NCBI GenBank assembly: GCA_030039005.1
Contig: JASHQT010000338.1
Location: 1-19,157 of the forward strand
Length of the DNA: 19,157 bases
Source: Bryobacteraceae bacterium
GTDB taxonomy: Bacteria > Acidobacteriota > Terriglobia > Bryobacterales > Bryobacteraceae
Direction of reading: 5' to 3'
Positions 10,152-18,378 of this stretch are shown here, piece after piece. Below the pieces are notes generated by a model that was not told the DNA's origin, did no database searches, and worked only from the letters and a program-made list of their open reading frames with translations. Position 1 is the first letter of the stretch. Each line of letters starts with the position of its first letter. A program made the position numbers and the translations under genes.

Positions 10152-10207
10152 CTTGAAATCGCAGGATAACAGGCAGGCCCTCGCCAATCAACGACTGCAC
10201 ATTGCGT

Positions 10208-10270
10208 CCGCACCGTGCCTGTTTCCCCGGTCCCCAGTCCCGGAGGCGACGCCGCAGGCGAAGCCGATCC
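10208..10270 (+). repeat. intergenic hairpin repeat, copy A
   Basis: A 34-nt upstream arm starting CCGCACCGTGCCTGTT leads to a hairpin core beginning at 10242. The core pairs GGC-GAC-GCC with GGC-GAA-GCC around a GCA loop. The middle of the stem has a G.A and an A.A mismatch where other copies have tandem G.A/A.G. It lies between the divergent folD and methyltransferase genes, about 60 nt before the methyltransferase ATG, in plus orientation. Confidence 0.75.
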
Positions 10271-10326
10271 CATCCCAACCCGGTGATGCGGCGCGGCGTC
10301 TAGCCTGCACGCTAAACTGAGTTCGC

Positions 10327-11154
10327 ATGCAAGGCTACGATTTCCGCCGCGTTTCCGTCACCGCCCTGATACCCGCGTTTGCCCGCGGCGAATACACCTC
10401 CATTCCCTACGCCAAGCAGATGCTTGCGTTTCTCCGCCGCCGCGGCGCCACTTTATCCGACGGCCCATGGTCGGACGACGCCGCGCGTGCCTTCGCTCCC
10501 GTATTCGAAGCGCGCTTTCGCGCCGTGACCCGTGCGGTCGCCGAAAAAGGCGCCACCCAGGTGCTCGAACTCGCCGCCGGGCTTTCTCCGCGCGGCATGG
10601 AACTCTCTCAACAAGGCATCGTCTACGTGGAATCCGATCTCGCCGAATCGATGACCCGCAAGCGCGAAATTGTCACCGCCGTTCTCGGCGCCGTCCCTCC
10701 GAACTTGCATCTTTGCGCGGCCAGCGCCCTCGATCGATCTCAGCTTCTCGAATGCTGCTCGCCCTTCGCGGCCGGGCGCCCCGTAGCCGTCACTACCGAA
10801 GGCCTGCTGCGCTACCTGACCTTTGACGAGAAGGCGCTAGTCGCCCGCAACGTGCACGAGATTCTCCAGCATTATGGCGGATGGTGGATCACACCCGATG
10901 TCCACCTGCGAAGCTTGACCCTGCGGCAGAACGCGGAGTACCGGCAGAAGGAGCTCGATACCTTGGGCCGCAGCCTCAACGCGAATTACTTCGAGGATCT
11001 GGACCACGCGCATCGCTTTTTCGAAAGCTTTGGCTTCGCCGTGGACTCGCGTCCGCTCTTTGAAAGCCCTCAGGACCCGATCGCGGCTCCGCAGAGCGAT
11101 CAGCCCGTTGACCTGAACGACTTCCGGCTATTTACCTTGACCCCGAAACCCTGA
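10327..11154 (+). CDS. class I SAM-dependent methyltransferase, LCM/PPM1-like
   Basis: A 275-residue protein with the Rossmann SAM-binding motif LELAAGLSPRG (motif I), acidic YVESDL at the end of beta 2, and EGLLRYL, which resembles the EGLLMYL signature of the leucine carboxyl methyltransferase family. That family includes bacterial enzymes acting on small molecules, so a protein-phosphatase substrate should not be assumed. No membrane segment or signal peptide is visible. No clear Shine-Dalgarno precedes the ATG, and hairpin repeat A sits in its upstream region. The gene is divergent from folD and followed at 211 nt by the histidine kinase. The fold call is good; the substrate is unknown. 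Confidence 0.82.
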   Translation: MQGYDFRRVSVTALIPAFARGEYTSIPYAKQMLAFLRRRGATLSDGPWSDDAARAFAPVFEARFRAVTRAVAEKGATQVLELAAGLSPRGMELSQQGIVYVESDLAESMTRKREIVTAVLGAVPPNLHLCAASALDRSQLLECCSPFAAGRPVAVTTEGLLRYLTFDEKALVARNVHEILQHYGGWWITPDVHLRSLTLRQNAEYRQKELDTLGRSLNANYFEDLDHAHRFFESFGFAVDSRPLFESPQDPIAAPQSDQPVDLNDFRLFTLTPKP

Positions 11155-11190
11155 GTCCACACTCACACATCCCCTCACCCTCGATTCCTT

Positions 11191-11254
11191 CCGCCGCGTG
11201 CCTGTCCTGCCAATCCCCGCCCTCGGAGGCGACGACTTCAGTCGGAGCCGATCC
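11191..11254 (+). repeat. intergenic hairpin repeat, copy B
   Basis: Aligns without gaps to copies A and D over the 34-nt arm (CCGCCGCGTGCCTGT...), with the hairpin core starting at 11225. The core is GGC-GAC-GAC pairing with GTC-GGA-GCC around a TTCA loop. The tip thus differs from A and D, while pairing and the tandem G.A/A.G mismatch are kept. Confidence 0.75.
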
Positions 11255-11263
11255 CCCCGCCAA

Positions 11264-11297
11264 CCCCGGAGGCGACGACTTCAGTCGGAGCCGAGCC
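11264..11297 (+). repeat. intergenic hairpin repeat, copy C (core only)
   Basis: A core-only copy directly after copy B, with the same GACTTCAGTC tip and GGCGAC/GGAGCC frame but without the 34-nt arm. It is followed by a further shrunken piece, GGCGAGGCGGAGCC, at about 11301-11314. Copy C ends about 20 nt before a TACAAT (11317-11322) that could be the -10 of the histidine kinase promoter. Confidence 0.7.
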
Positions 11298-11364
11298 TCC
11301 GGCGAGGCGGAGCCGTTACAATCTGAGTGGGTGCACTAAACGGGGGCGCACCTTCGAACGTTTC

Positions 11365-14300
11365 ATGGCCGAACAGGCAAAATCCGCTGCACTTGGCTCA
11401 GGCTACGAGTGTTTGCAGGGCGGAGGCGAGATGGGCGCCTTTATGCGCTCGTTCGACTGGGCGCATAGCTTGCTCGGTCCCGTCGACCAATGGCCGCAAA
11501 GCCTGCGCACCACCGTCAGCACCTGCTTGAACTCCCGGTTCGCCATCCTCATCTGGTGGGGACCGGAGTTGGTGATGCTGTACAACGACGCCTATCGCCA
11601 GATCATCGGCGCGAAACATCCCGCCGCCTTGGGCCATCCCGGACGCGAGTGCTGGCCCGAAATTTGGCACATCATCGGTCCCATGCTCGAAGGCGTTCTC
11701 GAACGCGGCGAGGCCACATGGTCCAATGACCTGTTGCTCATGTTGGAGCGCAGCGGTTATCCCGAGGAATGTTACTTCACCTTTTCCTACAGTCCCATTC
11801 GCGACGAATCGGGCCAGGTCGCGGGCGTCTTTACTCCCGTGGCCGACACCACCGAACGCGTGATCAACGAGCGCAGGATGGGCACGCTGCGCGCCTTGGC
11901 TGCCCGCGCCAGCGGGGCGCGCGACATCCAGTCCGCCTGCGCCGCCATCGCCGAAACGCTCTCGGAAAACGCGCGCAGCATTCCCTTCGCCAGCATTTAT
12001 CTTTTCGATGAATCCCGATCGTCGGCTAATCTCTGTGCCTCCGCCGGAATCGAAGTGGGTTCGCCCGCCGCGCTACCGCTCCTTCGCCTGTCCGAACTCC
12101 CGCCACCGCTTTCCGAAGCGGTCATCGAACCTCGAGTGACCGTGATCGACGATCTGGCCAGCATCTGGGGCCCCCTGCCGTGCGGCGCCTGGACGGTTCC
12201 CGCGCATTCCGCCGTCGTGCTTCCCATCCTCGTGCCCGGCCAGGCGTCCATCGGATTTGTGCTCGCCGGCGCCAATCCCCACAAGCGGGTGGACCAAAGC
12301 TACCGGACATTTTTCGAGCTGGTAGCCGGCCACATTTCCAGCGTCATCGCCGCGGCGCGCGCCTACCAGGAAGAGCGCAGCCGCGCCGAGGCATTGGCGG
12401 AAATTGACCGCGCCAAAACCACGTTCTTTTCCAACGTCAGTCACGAATTCAGGACGCCTCTCACTTTGCTGCTGGGTCCTCTGGAGGATGTACTGGCTGC
12501 GGCGCACGGCGGCGCGCTTCCCTCGGCTGCCGCCCGGAACCTGGAAATTGCCCATCGCAACGCCCTCCGCCTTCTGAAACTCGTCAATTCCCTTTTGGAT
12601 TTCTCCCGTATCGAAGCGCAGCGCACCCAGGCTTCCTACCAGCTCGTCGATCTCCCGGCTTTCACCGCCGGTCTCGCCGGCAATTTCCAGTCCTTGTGTG
12701 ACGAAGCCGGCCTGCGATTGGAAGTTCATTGCCCGCCCCTCCCGCCGGAACAGGCGGCCTACGTGGACCGCGATATGTGGGAAAAGATCGTGCTCAACCT
12801 CCTGAGCAACGCCTTCAAGTTCACGCTCCACGGCAAAATCGAAGTCCGCCTCCAAGCCCAGGGCGGATGCGCCGTTCTTACCGTGCGCGACACCGGCGTC
12901 GGCATTCCGCCCCAAGAACTTCCCCACATGTTCGAGCGTTTTCATCGCATCGAGCGCAGCCGCGGGCGAACGCAGGAAGGCACGGGTATCGGGCTGGCGC
13001 TGGTGCGGGAGCTCGCGAAATTCCATGGCGGCAGTGTCGGCGTGGAAAGCGCCGTGGGTCAGGGCAGCACATTCAAAGTCTCCATCCCGCTCGGAAAGCA
13101 ACACCTGGACGCGGAGCGGATCGCGCTATCGAGCGAAGTCACGGGCGACGTCGCCCTCAATCCGGTGCCCTCCGCTGCATTCGTCGCCGAAGCCTGGCGC
13201 TGGCTGCCGGACGATCTGCCGCAAACTCCGTACCCGGCCGCTGAAGAACACCCTGCCGGCGAACCAGCCACTGACCCATCTAGTAACAAAGAGGCGCGCG
13301 TTCTCTGGGCCGACGACAACCGCGACATGCGGGCCTACGTCAGCCGTTTATTGGGTAGCCGTTTTGACCTCGAGGTCGCCTCCGACGGAAAAGCCGCTCT
13401 GGACGCTGCGCGAGCGCGCCGGCCCGACCTGGTGCTGGCCGATATCATGATGCCCGGTTTGGACGGCTTCGCTTTGCTGCGCGAGATCCGCGCCGACCCG
13501 CACCTCGCGGAGATCCCCGTGATTCTGCTCTCGGCTCGCGCCGGAGAAGAAGCCCGCATCGAAGGCCTGCAAGCCGGCGCCGACGATTATCTGATCAAGC
13601 CCTTCAGCGCGCGCGAGCTGCTCGCTGTCATCCAATCCCACGTCCGCCAGTCTCGTTTTCGCCGGGAAGCGGCCGAAGCCCTGCGCCAAGCCGAGCGCAA
13701 CGCGCGCCTGCTGGCCGCCATCGTCGAGTCCTCCGACGACGCCATCATCAGCAAGGATCTCAACGGCATCATTACAAGCTGGAACCAAAGCGCCGAACGT
13801 CTGTTCGGGTACACCGCGGCCGAAGCCGTGGGCCAATCCGTCACGATTTTGATCCCGCCCGAACGGCTCGACGAAGAAACCGCCATCTTGGCCGCGCTGC
13901 GGCGTGGCGAGCGCTTCGACCATTTCGAGACCGTTCGCGTCCGCAAGGACGGCTCGCGGCTGAATCTCTCCTTGACCATCTCTCCCGTGAAGGATGCCGA
14001 AGGCCGCATCGTGGGCGCCTCGAAAGTGGCCCGGGACATTACCGCTTGGAAGCGGCAAGAGGCGGCGCTCAAGCAAGCTAACGCCGACTTGCAGCAGTTC
14101 GCGTATTCGGCTTCGCACGATCTGCAGGAACCCCTCCGCACCGTGACGGCCTACACTCAGCTCCTCGAAATGAGCCTGGGCCCGCGGCTCGGGGATCGCG
14201 ACAAGGAATTTGTCCGCTACATCGTGGACGCCTCCACCCGCATGCACAATTTGCTGCACGACTTGAGAGTCTACCTGCAGATTTCAACCGCCGATCATGA

Positions 14301-14766
14301 GCCGGCCGAAGAGATAGACTCGGGCGACACGGTGGGGCAAGCGCTGCAGAATCTCGATGCGGCCATCCGGGAAAGCGGCGCTTCGGTCGATTTCGCCGCT
14401 CTTCCGCGCGTCCGCATGCCGGCCTTCGAGCTGGAACAGGTCTTTCAGAATCTGATCGGAAACGCGATTCGCTATCGCGCGGGCGACCCGCCGCGCGTCC
14501 GGATCGCCGCGTCACGCCAAGGCGAGGAATGGCTTTTCTCCGTCCAGGACAACGGCATCGGCATCGCGCCTCAATTTCAAAAGCAGATCTTTGGGATCTT
14601 CCGGCGCCTCCACAGTCAATCCCAATATCCCGGCACCGGCATGGGTCTCGCCATTTGCCAGCGCAGCGTCGAACGGCACGGCGGCAAAATCTGGGTCGAA
14701 TCCGAGCCCGGAAAAGGCTCCACGTTTTTCTTCACCGTCCCCGTCGCCAATTCCCACAAACTTTAA
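11365..14766 (+). CDS. hybrid histidine kinase with two kinase cores flanking a receiver domain
   Basis: An 1133-residue cytosolic sensor kinase with no membrane segment. Domain order: PAS-like sensor (about 15-170, with YNDAYRQIIGAKHP and TFSYSPI); GAF-like (about 185-335); first HisKA with His360 in SHEFRTPL; first HATPase with Asn482 and DTGVGI at 509; receiver with acidic pair Asp650/Asp651, phospho-acceptor Asp693 in ADIMMPG and Lys745 in LIKPF; PAS (about 785-905); second HisKA with His918 in SHDLQEPL, the type seen in phytochrome-like kinases; and second HATPase with Asn1033 and DNGIGI at 1062. All catalytic residues of both cores look intact. No response-regulator gene is adjacent, so output must go to a distant partner. 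Repeats B and C and a possible -10 at 11317 lie upstream. Confidence 0.93.
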   Translation: MAEQAKSAALGSGYECLQGGGEMGAFMRSFDWAHSLLGPVDQWPQSLRTTVSTCLNSRFAILIWWGPELVMLYNDAYRQIIGAKHPAALGHPGRECWPEIWHIIGPMLEGVLERGEATWSNDLLLMLERSGYPEECYFTFSYSPIRDESGQVAGVFTPVADTTERVINERRMGTLRALAARASGARDIQSACAAIAETLSENARSIPFASIYLFDESRSSANLCASAGIEVGSPAALPLLRLSELPPPLSEAVIEPRVTVIDDLASIWGPLPCGAWTVPAHSAVVLPILVPGQASIGFVLAGANPHKRVDQSYRTFFELVAGHISSVIAAARAYQEERSRAEALAEIDRAKTTFFSNVSHEFRTPLTLLLGPLEDVLAAAHGGALPSAAARNLEIAHRNALRLLKLVNSLLDFSRIEAQRTQASYQLVDLPAFTAGLAGNFQSLCDEAGLRLEVHCPPLPPEQAAYVDRDMWEKIVLNLLSNAFKFTLHGKIEVRLQAQGGCAVLTVRDTGVGIPPQELPHMFERFHRIERSRGRTQEGTGIGLALVRELAKFHGGSVGVESAVGQGSTFKVSIPLGKQHLDAERIALSSEVTGDVALNPVPSAAFVAEAWRWLPDDLPQTPYPAAEEHPAGEPATDPSSNKEARVLWADDNRDMRAYVSRLLGSRFDLEVASDGKAALDAARARRPDLVLADIMMPGLDGFALLREIRADPHLAEIPVILLSARAGEEARIEGLQAGADDYLIKPFSARELLAVIQSHVRQSRFRREAAEALRQAERNARLLAAIVESSDDAIISKDLNGIITSWNQSAERLFGYTAAEAVGQSVTILIPPERLDEETAILAALRRGERFDHFETVRVRKDGSRLNLSLTISPVKDAEGRIVGASKVARDITAWKRQEAALKQANADLQQFAYSASHDLQEPLRTVTAYTQLLEMSLGPRLGDRDKEFVRYIVDASTRMHNLLHDLRVYLQISTADHEPAEEIDSGDTVGQALQNLDAAIRESGASVDFAALPRVRMPAFELEQVFQNLIGNAIRYRAGDPPRVRIAASRQGEEWLFSVQDNGIGIAPQFQKQIFGIFRRLHSQSQYPGTGMGLAICQRSVERHGGKIWVESEPGKGSTFFFTVPVANSHKL

Positions 14767-14833
14767 TCTGGGCCCATCCCTCCTTGAGTGGGCGCCAGAC
14801 TCAGTTTGGGCCATGGCGTCAGGATTACGCGGC

Positions 14834-16696
14834 TCATCCCAAGGTTGCGGACCTGGCGATAGCTCGCCCGCGAGACGATCGATCGCGTCCCTCCGTCGTA
14901 GCCTGCATCCAAAACTTTAACTGAGCCGTCTTAATCTTGCCATTGCTGTCAAAATACCAGTCCAGCCACTCGTCTGGCGTCGACTTCAGCGTGGCATCGG
15001 CATCCTGGTCGCCGTTGCGGATCGACCATCTCCAGGCAAAGTGGTCATATACGTCTAGGACGTGCGTCGCATACGCCATCGCTAGTTTCTTGTTGCCCTT
15101 GATCATCACCAGGTTCTCATCGTTGTTATACGAGGCCTGGTAGCCGAGATTGTGGCTGCCCGTGATTACCGTGCAGTTGGCGTCGTCGAAAGGATCGATC
15201 ACTACGATCTTGTCATGCGTGATCGCAAAGCCCGCCTTCAGCAGCTCCGGCTTCCAACCTTGGGGCAGTTTGTCCCGGTTCAGAGCCGTTGCTGCGATCA
15301 CGCGCGGATCTTGCTTGGGGGGCGCCTTTTTCCGCCCCTTGGCCGTTCGCGGGGGTGAGGTACCCGTCAGGTCGTAGCGGAAGTTGCCTGCCGCGTCGGG
15401 CGATGTTACGCATCCACGCACGAAGAGGTCCTTTTTTGCTTTCTGAGCCGCGGCGGCAAACTCGGTAATGCTGGGCGTGCCGGGGATGAAAGCTAGAAAA
15501 AGCACCGCCTGCTTGGCCGCCATCACCCTCGCCGATAGATCCTTCATGTCCACGGGCATGAGCTCTTTGCCCGACTTCTTCTTCGCCGCCGAACGCGCGG
15601 CCGGAGTATTCGGCGAGAAGTAGCTGGTCAATCCACTGCGCTGGTCTGTCTGGCCGTCGAGAGTGAAGGGCTTGCCCGTGGAATCGAAGTCCCTCATGTC
15701 ATCCCCTTGGAACTTGCCCGTCCCCGCCTCTACGGCTTTCTCGTCGGCCTTCAGTGTGTTCCAATACGCCAGGTAACGCTCCGCGACGTTCGCGTCTTCG
15801 ATAATGAGGGCATTGTTGGTCTGTGCGCACAGCCCTGTGTCGGTCCAATTGGTCGACCCGGTCAGTACCGCCTTTGGCCCGCCGGAGTCCGCGTAGACCA
15901 GGAATTTGTTATGCACAATGTGCCCGCTGGGCGGCTTGCGGTAAAACGAATTTCCCTTGGTCAGCGCGTGAATTTTCTTCCACGCTGCGTCGTTTTCCCC
16001 CGGCTTCGCGGTGGTCCCGTCTTTCGGTTTGGGCGAGACAATGTCGGCCAGGACAATCTGCAGTTTGCTGCCCAAGTTTACCAGGCCTTGGATCAGCTCG
16101 ACGTCGGTCAATTCGTACAACGCAGCGTAAATAGTGCCGCCATTCGCCGCGCGCTTCAGGAAGCCGGTCAGAGTGCCGATCATGTCTCCCGCCAAATCCA
16201 GGCGTAGCTGGTTGCCCGGCTTGGCAATTGTTTCTTTCAGGCTGTCCGGGTTGATGTGGCCCTTCAACTCGAACGAGACGTGCTGCGTGGAGATCAGCCC
16301 GCGGTTGAAGACCGCCGATAGGGACGGCGAGCACTCCGATGTCAGAGTCACCTGGTTGGTGGTTAGAATGGGCAGCGATTTCATGGGCGTAAGGCTTCCA
16401 GGGCTGCCCTCCAGGGGGACGATCTTGTAACGGAATACCGGCGATATTTTCGTCTTGTCCACCAGTGGCCGCGCATAAACGTCCTTCCAGTAGAATTTCT
16501 GAATTGGAAACTGCTCCGTGGTCTGTCCGGGCTGGATGGTCTCTCCCTGGAATACGGCATGGCTTGGCAGCGGTGTCTCATGGCCCTTGTCGTCAACACG
16601 ATACAGGGCGAATCCCATGCAGCCATCAGGACGCTGGCCGTAGCTCCAGGCGATCGTGATCACATCGTTATTGGCAAATGCCACAGCATTACGCAT
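14834..16696 (-). CDS. phospholipase D-superfamily protein with two HKD motifs
   Basis: A 620-residue protein. Residues 1 to about 110 are beta-rich and fibronectin-III-like (inference). Two PLD half-sites follow. The first is His262-x-Lys264 in VHNKFLVYAD, ending with GSTNW. The second is His494-x-Lys496 in THDKIVVIDP, ending with GSHNLG. Two intact HKD motifs predict a catalytically competent phosphodiesterase, which could be a phospholipase, nuclease or transferase. No signal peptide is visible, so a cytosolic place is expected unless secretion is non-classical. The ATG at 16696 is supported by GGAGG 6 nt upstream. The gene is convergent with the histidine kinase (67 nt between stops). A possible promoter is at 16741-16768. 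The substrate cannot be read from sequence. Confidence 0.9.
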   Translation of the reverse strand: MRNAVAFANNDVITIAWSYGQRPDGCMGFALYRVDDKGHETPLPSHAVFQGETIQPGQTTEQFPIQKFYWKDVYARPLVDKTKISPVFRYKIVPLEGSPGSLTPMKSLPILTTNQVTLTSECSPSLSAVFNRGLISTQHVSFELKGHINPDSLKETIAKPGNQLRLDLAGDMIGTLTGFLKRAANGGTIYAALYELTDVELIQGLVNLGSKLQIVLADIVSPKPKDGTTAKPGENDAAWKKIHALTKGNSFYRKPPSGHIVHNKFLVYADSGGPKAVLTGSTNWTDTGLCAQTNNALIIEDANVAERYLAYWNTLKADEKAVEAGTGKFQGDDMRDFDSTGKPFTLDGQTDQRSGLTSYFSPNTPAARSAAKKKSGKELMPVDMKDLSARVMAAKQAVLFLAFIPGTPSITEFAAAAQKAKKDLFVRGCVTSPDAAGNFRYDLTGTSPPRTAKGRKKAPPKQDPRVIAATALNRDKLPQGWKPELLKAGFAITHDKIVVIDPFDDANCTVITGSHNLGYQASYNNDENLVMIKGNKKLAMAYATHVLDVYDHFAWRWSIRNGDQDADATLKSTPDEWLDWYFDSNGKIKTAQLKFWMQATTEGRDRSSRGRAIARSATLG

Positions 16697-16740
16697 ACAT
16701 TTCCTCCGCAGAGTTGGTCAATGAATACAGCTTTCCGCCC

Positions 16741-16768
16741 ATAATACACCAAGAAACCTGAATGCCAC
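16741..16768 (-). promoter_or_regulatory. possible promoter of the PLD-family gene
   Basis: On the minus strand TATTAT (16741-16746, five of six matches to TATAAT) lies 16 nt downstream of GTGGCA (16763-16768, four of six to TTGACA). Transcription would start near 16734, giving a leader of about 38 nt that contains the strong GGAGG site. This is consensus matching only. Confidence 0.35.
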
Positions 16769-16933
16769 TCGATTTTTTCAAGCTGCGGTAAGGAAAACTA
16801 GACCGGCAGAATAATCTCCAGGAAATGCAAGATTGGTTACAACCATCCTGGCGCACGGCTTGCTCGCGCAACCTTGTCCGGCCAGGCCGAGACCAGTTTC
16901 TAGGCTGCGTCGTAGGACGCCTGCTCCTCAAAC

Positions 16934-16965
16934 GCGGGGGCGACGCCGTCACGCGGAGCCCCCGC
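16934..16965 (+). repeat. long-stem hairpin, divergent member of the repeat family (copy E)
   Basis: A perfect 8-bp outer stem (GCGGGGGC with GCCCCCGC) encloses GAC-GC...GC-GGA, giving the same tandem G.A/A.G position (16942/16957 and 16943/16956) and the same GGCGAC...GGAGCC frame as copies A to D. The tip sequence is unrelated and the outer stem is longer. It lacks the 34-nt arm. It lies about 98 nt before the MDR gene, in the same orientation, with no T-run, so it is not a classical terminator. Confidence 0.6.
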
Positions 16966-17050
16966 TAAGCACGCGGTTTCGCCTGAAACGCGGTAAGTTG
17001 GCGCATCGGTGTGCCGTTGAGTGGAATCTAATGGCAGTGTCGCTCTGGTG

Positions 17051-17058
17051 AGGAGAAG
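17051..17058 (+). promoter_or_regulatory. ribosome binding site deciding the MDR start
   Basis: AGGAGAAG ends 4 nt before the ATG at 17063. This selects that codon over the in-frame ATG at 17021, whose extra 14 residues do not look like the family. Confidence 0.75.
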
Positions 17059-17062
17059 CGCT

Positions 17063-17983
17063 ATGCCGCGTGCCGTGAGATTCACTAACTATGGGGGGCT
17101 GGAAGTTCTGCAAGTGGTGGAGGTCGACCGCCCCAAGCCGGGGCCTGGCGGGGTGTTGGTGCGAGTGAAAGCCGCGGGCATTAATCCGGGCGAGGCCATG
17201 ATACGCAAAGGATTGTTTGCCGAGCGCTGGCCGGCCACGTTCCCTTCCGGCCAGGGCAGCGATTTGGCCGGGATCGTGGAGGAGGTCGGACCGGGCGTCA
17301 AGAATGTCGCCGTGGGCGATGAGGTGATCGGATTCACCAACGACCGGGCAAGCCAAGCCGAGTTCGTGCTGGTGGAATCCGGGAACCTGGTGCCTCGCCC
17401 GAAGAGTGTATCGTGGGAGCAGGCTGGCGCCTTGTTCGTGGCCGGGACTACGGCTTACGCCGCCGTGCGCAGCGTCGGTCTGAGCGCCGGTGACACGGTG
17501 GTTGTTTCCGGCGCCGCCGGTGGGGTCGGATCCATCGCGGTTCAGTTGGCCAGAAATGCGGAGGCCAAAGTGATTGGCCTGGCCAGCGACGCCAATCGCC
17601 AGTGGCTAACCGATCACGGGGTAGTTCCCGTTAACTACGGCGATGGAGTAGAAGATCGGATTCGCGCTGCTTCGGGCGGGAAAGTGGATGCGTTCATTGA
17701 TACTTTCGGCGGAGGGTACGTTGATCTGGCGATTCGGTTGGGCGTCGCTCCGAATCGAATCGATACCATCATCGACTTCGCCGCCGCGGCCAAGTACGGC
17801 GTGAAAACGGAAGGCAGCTACGAAGCCGCGAACGCGGGCGTACTCGGGGAACTCGCCGGTCTAATCGCCGCCGGCCGGCTCGACATCCCAATCGCCAAGG
17901 TCTATCCTCTGGCCCAGGTACGCGAGGCCTATCGAGAGCTCGAACAGCGTCACACACGCGGCAAGATCGTTCTGGAACCGTGA
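17063..17983 (+). CDS. zinc-free MDR oxidoreductase, quinone oxidoreductase-like
   Basis: A 306-residue NADP(H)-type medium-chain dehydrogenase/reductase of the quinone oxidoreductase group. The N-terminal GroES-like domain has AAGINPGEAMIRKG and GSDLAGIVEEVGPGV. The Rossmann domain has the cofactor loop GAAGGVG at residues 150-156 and VQLARNAEAKVIG. The structural-zinc cysteine cluster of alcohol dehydrogenases is absent. The C-terminus ends with the usual AYRELEQRHTRGKIVL. It is cytosolic; reduction of quinones or enones is the family's usual activity, but the substrate is unknown. It stands alone, with hairpin copy E upstream and repeat copy D downstream. Confidence 0.9.
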   Translation: MPRAVRFTNYGGLEVLQVVEVDRPKPGPGGVLVRVKAAGINPGEAMIRKGLFAERWPATFPSGQGSDLAGIVEEVGPGVKNVAVGDEVIGFTNDRASQAEFVLVESGNLVPRPKSVSWEQAGALFVAGTTAYAAVRSVGLSAGDTVVVSGAAGGVGSIAVQLARNAEAKVIGLASDANRQWLTDHGVVPVNYGDGVEDRIRAASGGKVDAFIDTFGGGYVDLAIRLGVAPNRIDTIIDFAAAAKYGVKTEGSYEAANAGVLGELAGLIAAGRLDIPIAKVYPLAQVREAYRELEQRHTRGKIVLEP

Positions 17984-18378
17984 CGTGCAGACTGCGCGTT
18001 CCGCCGTAACGGGATCCGCGACAACGCCAAATCCGCCCGCACCGTGCCGGTTCCGCCAACTGCCGACCCCGGAGGGCGACGCCGCAGGCGGAGCCGATCC
18101 CCCGCAGCCCTCCAGCAACACGGACCGCCCGTGAATATTACGGCGCCTAAACCGACTCCTGGAGAGCCATCCAATCCGAGCTCCGCGAGCGCCTCGCAGC
18201 ATTCTACGAGTAGCCGACGATACACCCGAAGGGCTCGCGCTACCTTGAACGATGCGCGCCAGCGAAACACCACCGCTCTATCGGGTAAGCACGGGAAGGT
18301 ATTGACCTGCCTCGATCCTTTCAGCCAGCGATAACTGAGGATTTCAGGACCTCGGCGATCCGTTCGCGAATAAGGGGC
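17984..18378. other. intergenic region holding repeat copy D
   Basis: In these 395 nt I see repeat copy D (18037-18103) and a 7-bp inverted repeat (GCGATAA at 18328-18334 with TTATCGC at 18379-18385) spanning the stop codon of the next minus-strand gene. That repeat is too widely spaced to be a convincing terminator. Nothing protein-like or tRNA-like was found in the remainder. Confidence 0.55.
18037..18103 (+). repeat. intergenic hairpin repeat, copy D
   Basis: Aligns without gaps to copies A and B over the 34-nt arm (CCGCACCGTGCCGGTT...), with the core starting at 18071. The core has GGC-GAC-GCC pairing with GGC-GGA-GCC around a GCA loop, with tandem G.A/A.G. It lies 54 nt after the MDR stop codon, in the same orientation as the other copies. 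Confidence 0.75.

Follow-up and report, generated by a model that had tools for sequence, protein, structure and literature searches.

In Escherichia coli repetitive extragenic palindromic (REP) sequences, a conserved stem mismatch is required for TnpA_REP activity and one strand alone is recognized (PMC8266576). REP sequences are species-specific, and Quentin et al. (2018) described, at the class 3 TnpA_Y1 genes of Acidobacteria, REP-like structures with a CnGA foot that have a “weaker secondary structure” and number ~600 copies in Solibacter usitatus (PMC6006769). Many short repeats have also been reported in the Solibacter genome (PMC3174227). Here we describe a set of short hairpins (copies A, B, C, and E, hairpin D, and a putative hairpin F) in a 19,157-base stretch of contig JASHQT010000338.1; this whole stretch is called the window. 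We lean towards the reading that A, B, C, and E, together with putative F, are CnGA-foot REP-like elements in a Bryobacterales-like acidobacterium. The copies are probably single-stranded DNA hairpins spread by a HuH enzyme, and not an RNA regulator. We favor this reading because the CGGA foot of A, B, C, and E fits the class 3 CnGA foot reported in Acidobacteria, because A, B, and E fold weakly and the host probably belongs to Solibacter’s order, and because both tandem and dispersed copies occur.

The hairpins of A, B, C, and E are preceded directly by the tetranucleotide CGGA, E having one additional G between foot and stem, and the foot that marks class 3 structures is thereby found in four of the five hairpins; D has CGGG instead. 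Over the 45 bases 5′ of the foot, A and B are identical at 26 positions, A and E at 28, and B and E at 29, values reached by 23, 5, and 3, respectively, of 39,248 pairs of C-rich 45-mers drawn from the window. Over the same 45 bases, C and D are identical to the other copies at 15 to 20 positions, i.e., this block is not shared by them. GATCCC ends A, B, and E alike. These three are dispersed copies of a ~70-nt repeat with a conserved block of ~40 nt 5′ of the hairpin. Copy C repeats part of B in tandem with a period of 43 nt, the 22-mers of B and C being identical (two occurrences). The most constant portion of the unit is the foot plus hairpin, which is found without the block in C and with a different stem in putative F. 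In all, four copies and putative F lie within 19 kb.

The upstream similarity of A, B, and E, the CGGA foot, and the overlapping hairpin F were all absent from an earlier note on this DNA, which had described A to E as five intergenic hairpins read in the same direction. All five do lie on the plus strand and outside Pfam-matched genes, but D is probably a separate, unrelated hairpin and not a family member, because it has neither the CGGA foot nor the upstream block and carries an 8-bp outer stem. The pattern GGCGACN{6,14}GGAGCC, based on the GGCGAC...GGAGCC core that the note had assigned to every copy, has four matches in the window (B, C, D, and E) versus 0.07 expected, and four were reached in 0 of 200 shuffles. 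Copy A is one mismatch away from the pattern, with GAAGCC for GGAGCC. A tandem G.A/A.G step in B, C, D, and E and G.A/A.A in A had been described correctly.

A descriptor of the element (CNGA, 0–1 base, 3 bp, GA, 3–4 bp, a loop of 3–6, then back) was matched in the window by B, C, E, and the overlapping hairpin F, all on the plus strand, compared with 3 matches in total on both strands of 200 shuffles; A, with its G.A/A.A, and D, without the foot, fall outside this descriptor. Hairpin F differs from the family in its stem and has the same foot and tandem GA, and it is graded as putative because the minimum-energy DNA fold of its stretch (11284–11315) is a different one. A covariance model built from the five hairpins scores them at 43.9–52.8 bits, a recovery that holds by construction and informs solely on the lack of a sixth close copy, the best other match in the window having 11.3 bits (E = 1).

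As plus-strand DNA, A, B, and E fold weakly, at −5.6 to −7.6 kcal/mol (z −0.1 to −0.9, ordinary for their composition), in line with the weak secondary structure of class 3, itself a vague criterion. The folding energy of the DNA is nearly equal on both strands, so energy cannot pick the strand, and the argument for the plus strand is the foot. D folds strongly, with z of −2.5 as DNA and −3.0 as RNA (an 8 + 3 bp hairpin with tandem GA).

Table 1. Positions of the repeat copies and hairpins in the window.
Feature	Position	Strand	Composition
Copy A, whole unit	10201..10271	+	Upstream block (start approximate), foot CGGA 10241-10244, hairpin 10245-10265, GATCCC tail
Copy B, whole unit	11184..11255	+	Upstream block (start approximate), foot CGGA 11224-11227, hairpin 11228-11249, GATCCC tail
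Copy C	11267..11292	+	Foot CGGA 11267-11270, hairpin 11271-11292; without upstream block
Hairpin F, putative	11286..11308	+	Overlaps C; CGGA then GCC-GA-GCC-TCC-GGC-GA-GGC
Hairpin D	16934..16965 (core hairpin 16939-16960)	+	8-bp outer stem, GGCGAC..GGAGCC core, tandem GA
Copy E, whole unit	18030..18101	+	Upstream block (start approximate), foot CGGA 18070-18073, hairpin 18075-18095, GATCCC tail

If the copies are REP-like elements, the plus strand would fold when single-stranded, e.g., during replication, and a HuH Tyr enzyme resembling class 3 TnpA_Y1 would read the CGGA guide and the mismatched stem. The same enzyme would cut nearby and move or duplicate the unit. The tip would be free to vary because the enzyme would read the foot, the lower stem, and the mismatch, as E. 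coli TnpA_REP reads GTAG and a bulge. A more specific proposal, which we consider rather unlikely, is that CGGA plus the tandem G.A/A.G step is the recognition mark for a class 3 enzyme, with the tip and even the stem (as in F) drifting, and that the whole ~70-nt unit, upstream block included, is what moves, which would place it between an IS200-type end and a REP.

Several observations weigh against assigning the copies to REP-like elements of class 3. No Pfam Y1 transposase was found among the 17 open reading frames (ORFs) scanned of the 80 listed for the window, and the case for class 3 membership draws on foot, fold, and host rather than on homology, the comparison being made with the published description. 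CnGA is a loose motif with three fixed bases, the ~70-nt unit with its upstream block exceeds the length of a plain REP, and the word “mismatch” is absent from the main text of PMC6006769. The minus strand of the window holds zero copies by pattern search and covariance model, with no inverted pair of the kind seen in bacterial interspersed mosaic elements (BIMEs), and the same-strand orientation of so few independent copies is not significant alone.

The Pfam scan of window ORFs found genes for GlgB, CoaE, FolD, and adenosine deaminase, among others. Among the matches listed for the LCM methyltransferase (120 of 268), the two that carry an organism name are both from Bryobacteraceae, at 80% and 69% identity. 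Judging from the relatives of this one gene, the host probably belongs to the acidobacterial order Bryobacterales, as do both Solibacter and these Bryobacteraceae relatives. None of the five hairpins lies inside a gene with a Pfam match; the short ORFs that D and E overlap have no such match. Copy A is flanked by folD and the LCM gene, which diverge. The LCM gene and a histidine kinase gene, which run in the same direction, flank B and C, and divergent genes for a PLD-like protein and a zinc-type dehydrogenase flank D. E is 3′ of the zinc-type dehydrogenase gene and ahead of a convergent ORF without a Pfam match. These contexts fit an intergenic repeat rather than a single regulatory element at a fixed place. 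No intrinsic terminator (GC hairpin plus T run) and no promoter match was found at any copy.

The earlier note had suggested selection on an RNA or DNA structure with a covarying tip and had taken the plus-strand RNA as the likelier folded form. We consider a structured cis-acting RNA, in which the plus-strand transcript would fold and be bound or processed, improbable, even though every copy is on one strand and the plus strand at each site could be co-transcribed with an adjacent plus-strand gene. Tandem G.A mismatches form a stable step in RNA, and C and D beat most shuffles in RNA folding; the best RNA fold of C (z −2.5), however, has another outer stem and is not the proposed hairpin, and z for A, B, and E is −0.1 to −0.4, ordinary for their composition. 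In the five-row alignment 97.1% of cells are paired, and a two-sided change occurs at one of seven pairs (C-G to A-T), in B and C only, which counts as one event because these two are tandem copies. The covariation score is reached by 58 of 500 shuffles and so is not significant; an alignment of five rows has little power. The single covariation event, the mixed gene contexts, and the lack of any Rfam, promoter, or terminator match on the copies (zero Rfam matches in the window at gathering score, with weaker E-value matches located off every copy) leave the proposed selection on RNA structure unsupported. The note had also given the tip GCC-GCA-GGC to A and D, thereby exchanging the tips of D and E: it is A and E that share this tip, and D folds as CGC-CGTCAC-GCG. 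The starts given for C and D were off by a few bases.

A different origin within DNA would be a small ~70-nt dispersed repeat, such as one resembling a miniature inverted-repeat transposable element (MITE) or the terminal repeat of another Y1 transposase, with the hairpin and CGGA incidental. We hold this as a minority possibility. In A, B, and E, conservation extends ~40 nt upstream from the hairpin, beyond what a REP needs, and a predicted alternative pairing joins CGTGCC of these blocks (10201–10240, 11184–11223, and 18030–18069) to GGCGACG of the hairpin in the same three copies, without covariation. In other Acidobacteria, including Koribacter versatilis, Y1 transposases (TIRYT) are flanked by terminal inverted repeats (TIRs), one of which forms a family in Koribacter (PMC3733652). 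Against such an origin, it is the foot and hairpin that are most constant, recurring in C, where the block is missing, and in putative F, where the stem differs, and the GGGGWSAS motif of some TIRs lies on no copy (3 matches in the window versus 5.5 expected). Chance similarity in a GC-rich contig is very improbable for the family as a whole. GGCGAC and GGAGCC are frequent words in the contig, and CGGAGGCGACN{6,14}GGAGCC occurs sporadically elsewhere, in 63 of 282 genomes from the phylum to which a Myxococcales metagenome-assembled genome belongs, at no more than four each; D may be such a chance case. The excess of pattern matches over expectation, the upstream block common to A, B, and E, and the identical 22-mers of B and C all argue against chance for the rest.

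Relatives of the CGGA-footed elements were also sought elsewhere. In the same 282 genomes the hairpin pattern forms no family, with a backward-read control similarly scattered, a result that is not informative on Acidobacteriota. A search of a genome collection (84,980 species) that covered B/C-type tips with an 8-nt interior, and not the A/E or D tips, yielded four stretches, all of them lacking both a preceding CGGA and a following GATC; this lack of credible matches to B/C-type tips fits the species-specific nature of REPs (PMC6006769). Four patterns searched in viral contigs gave 11, 12, 0, and 0 stretches, and by eye the tips and flanks of these 23 are unrelated, several of the stretches being duplicates of one another. 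Protein look-ups among viral contigs showed no relative, and plasmid matches had E values of 0.4 or worse in the rows listed, five each from 56 and from 12 records. A covariance-model search of three genomes, in which 150 of thousands of candidates were scored per genome without a positive control, was empty. PF01797 matches occur in 44 of 95 genomes of another phylum, and the class 3 motif (NHVH, W[TA], YV[VI][AENY]EQ) was found in 0 of 29 loci screened among the PF01797 matches listed from these 95 genomes.

Taken together, the repeats are probably a new example of a known REP-like kind and not a new regulatory RNA, and the earlier statement that no named element fits the description was not quite right, as PMC6006769 reports REP-like structures with a CnGA foot for class 3 TnpA_Y1. 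Among the papers found, class 3 TnpA_Y1 and its CnGA structures are the subject of one, with one short section calling for experiments (PMC6006769), and a literature text search, judged at the level of titles and the beginnings of abstracts, found no further paper on CnGA structures. Copies from a probable relative suggest which parts are constant (foot, G.A step, and upstream block) and which drift (the tip), and hence what to mutate. By extension, CnGA-footed elements may account for part of Solibacter’s short repeats.

Compared with the acidobacterial TIRYT TIR families (PMC3733652), the window copies are alike in that some of those Y1-transposase repeats are self-complementary and repeated in the genome, and they differ in that the TIRYT repeats are terminal inverted repeats, some with GGGGWSAS, which the copies lack. 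The CGTC-tagged REPs of Di Nocera et al. (2013) are likewise short palindromes that carry a tag and have no known transposase (PMC3733652) but do not fit the window copies, which have a CGGA foot and stems that start with G-C pairs; the main text of that paper contains neither “Solibacter” nor “CGGA.” The GT[AG]G foot of a canonical REP is not present either, as the plus-strand foot is CGGA and the minus-strand 5′ flank of A, B, and E is GATC. With the E. coli REP and TnpA_REP system (subclass 2.2; PMC8266576, whose main text contains neither “Solibacter” nor “CnGA”), the copies share an imperfect palindrome with a conserved mid-stem mismatch, a 5′-foot tetranucleotide, an intergenic location, and, on the present reading, strand-specific recognition. 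The E. coli foot is GTAG, its mismatch is AA-GC, and its REPs often occur in BIMEs, whereas here the foot is CGGA, the mismatch is a tandem GA/GA, and the orientation is direct only; by analogy, the G.A step may play the role of the E. coli mid-stem mismatch. Relative to the class 3 TnpA_Y1 REP-like structures (PMC6006769), the window differs in that no TnpA gene was found in it and in that neither a mismatch nor an upstream block is mentioned in the passages compared. The points of agreement are a CnGA foot, here CGGA, on a weak hairpin, present in multiple copies, in Acidobacteria that include Solibacter usitatus of the same order.
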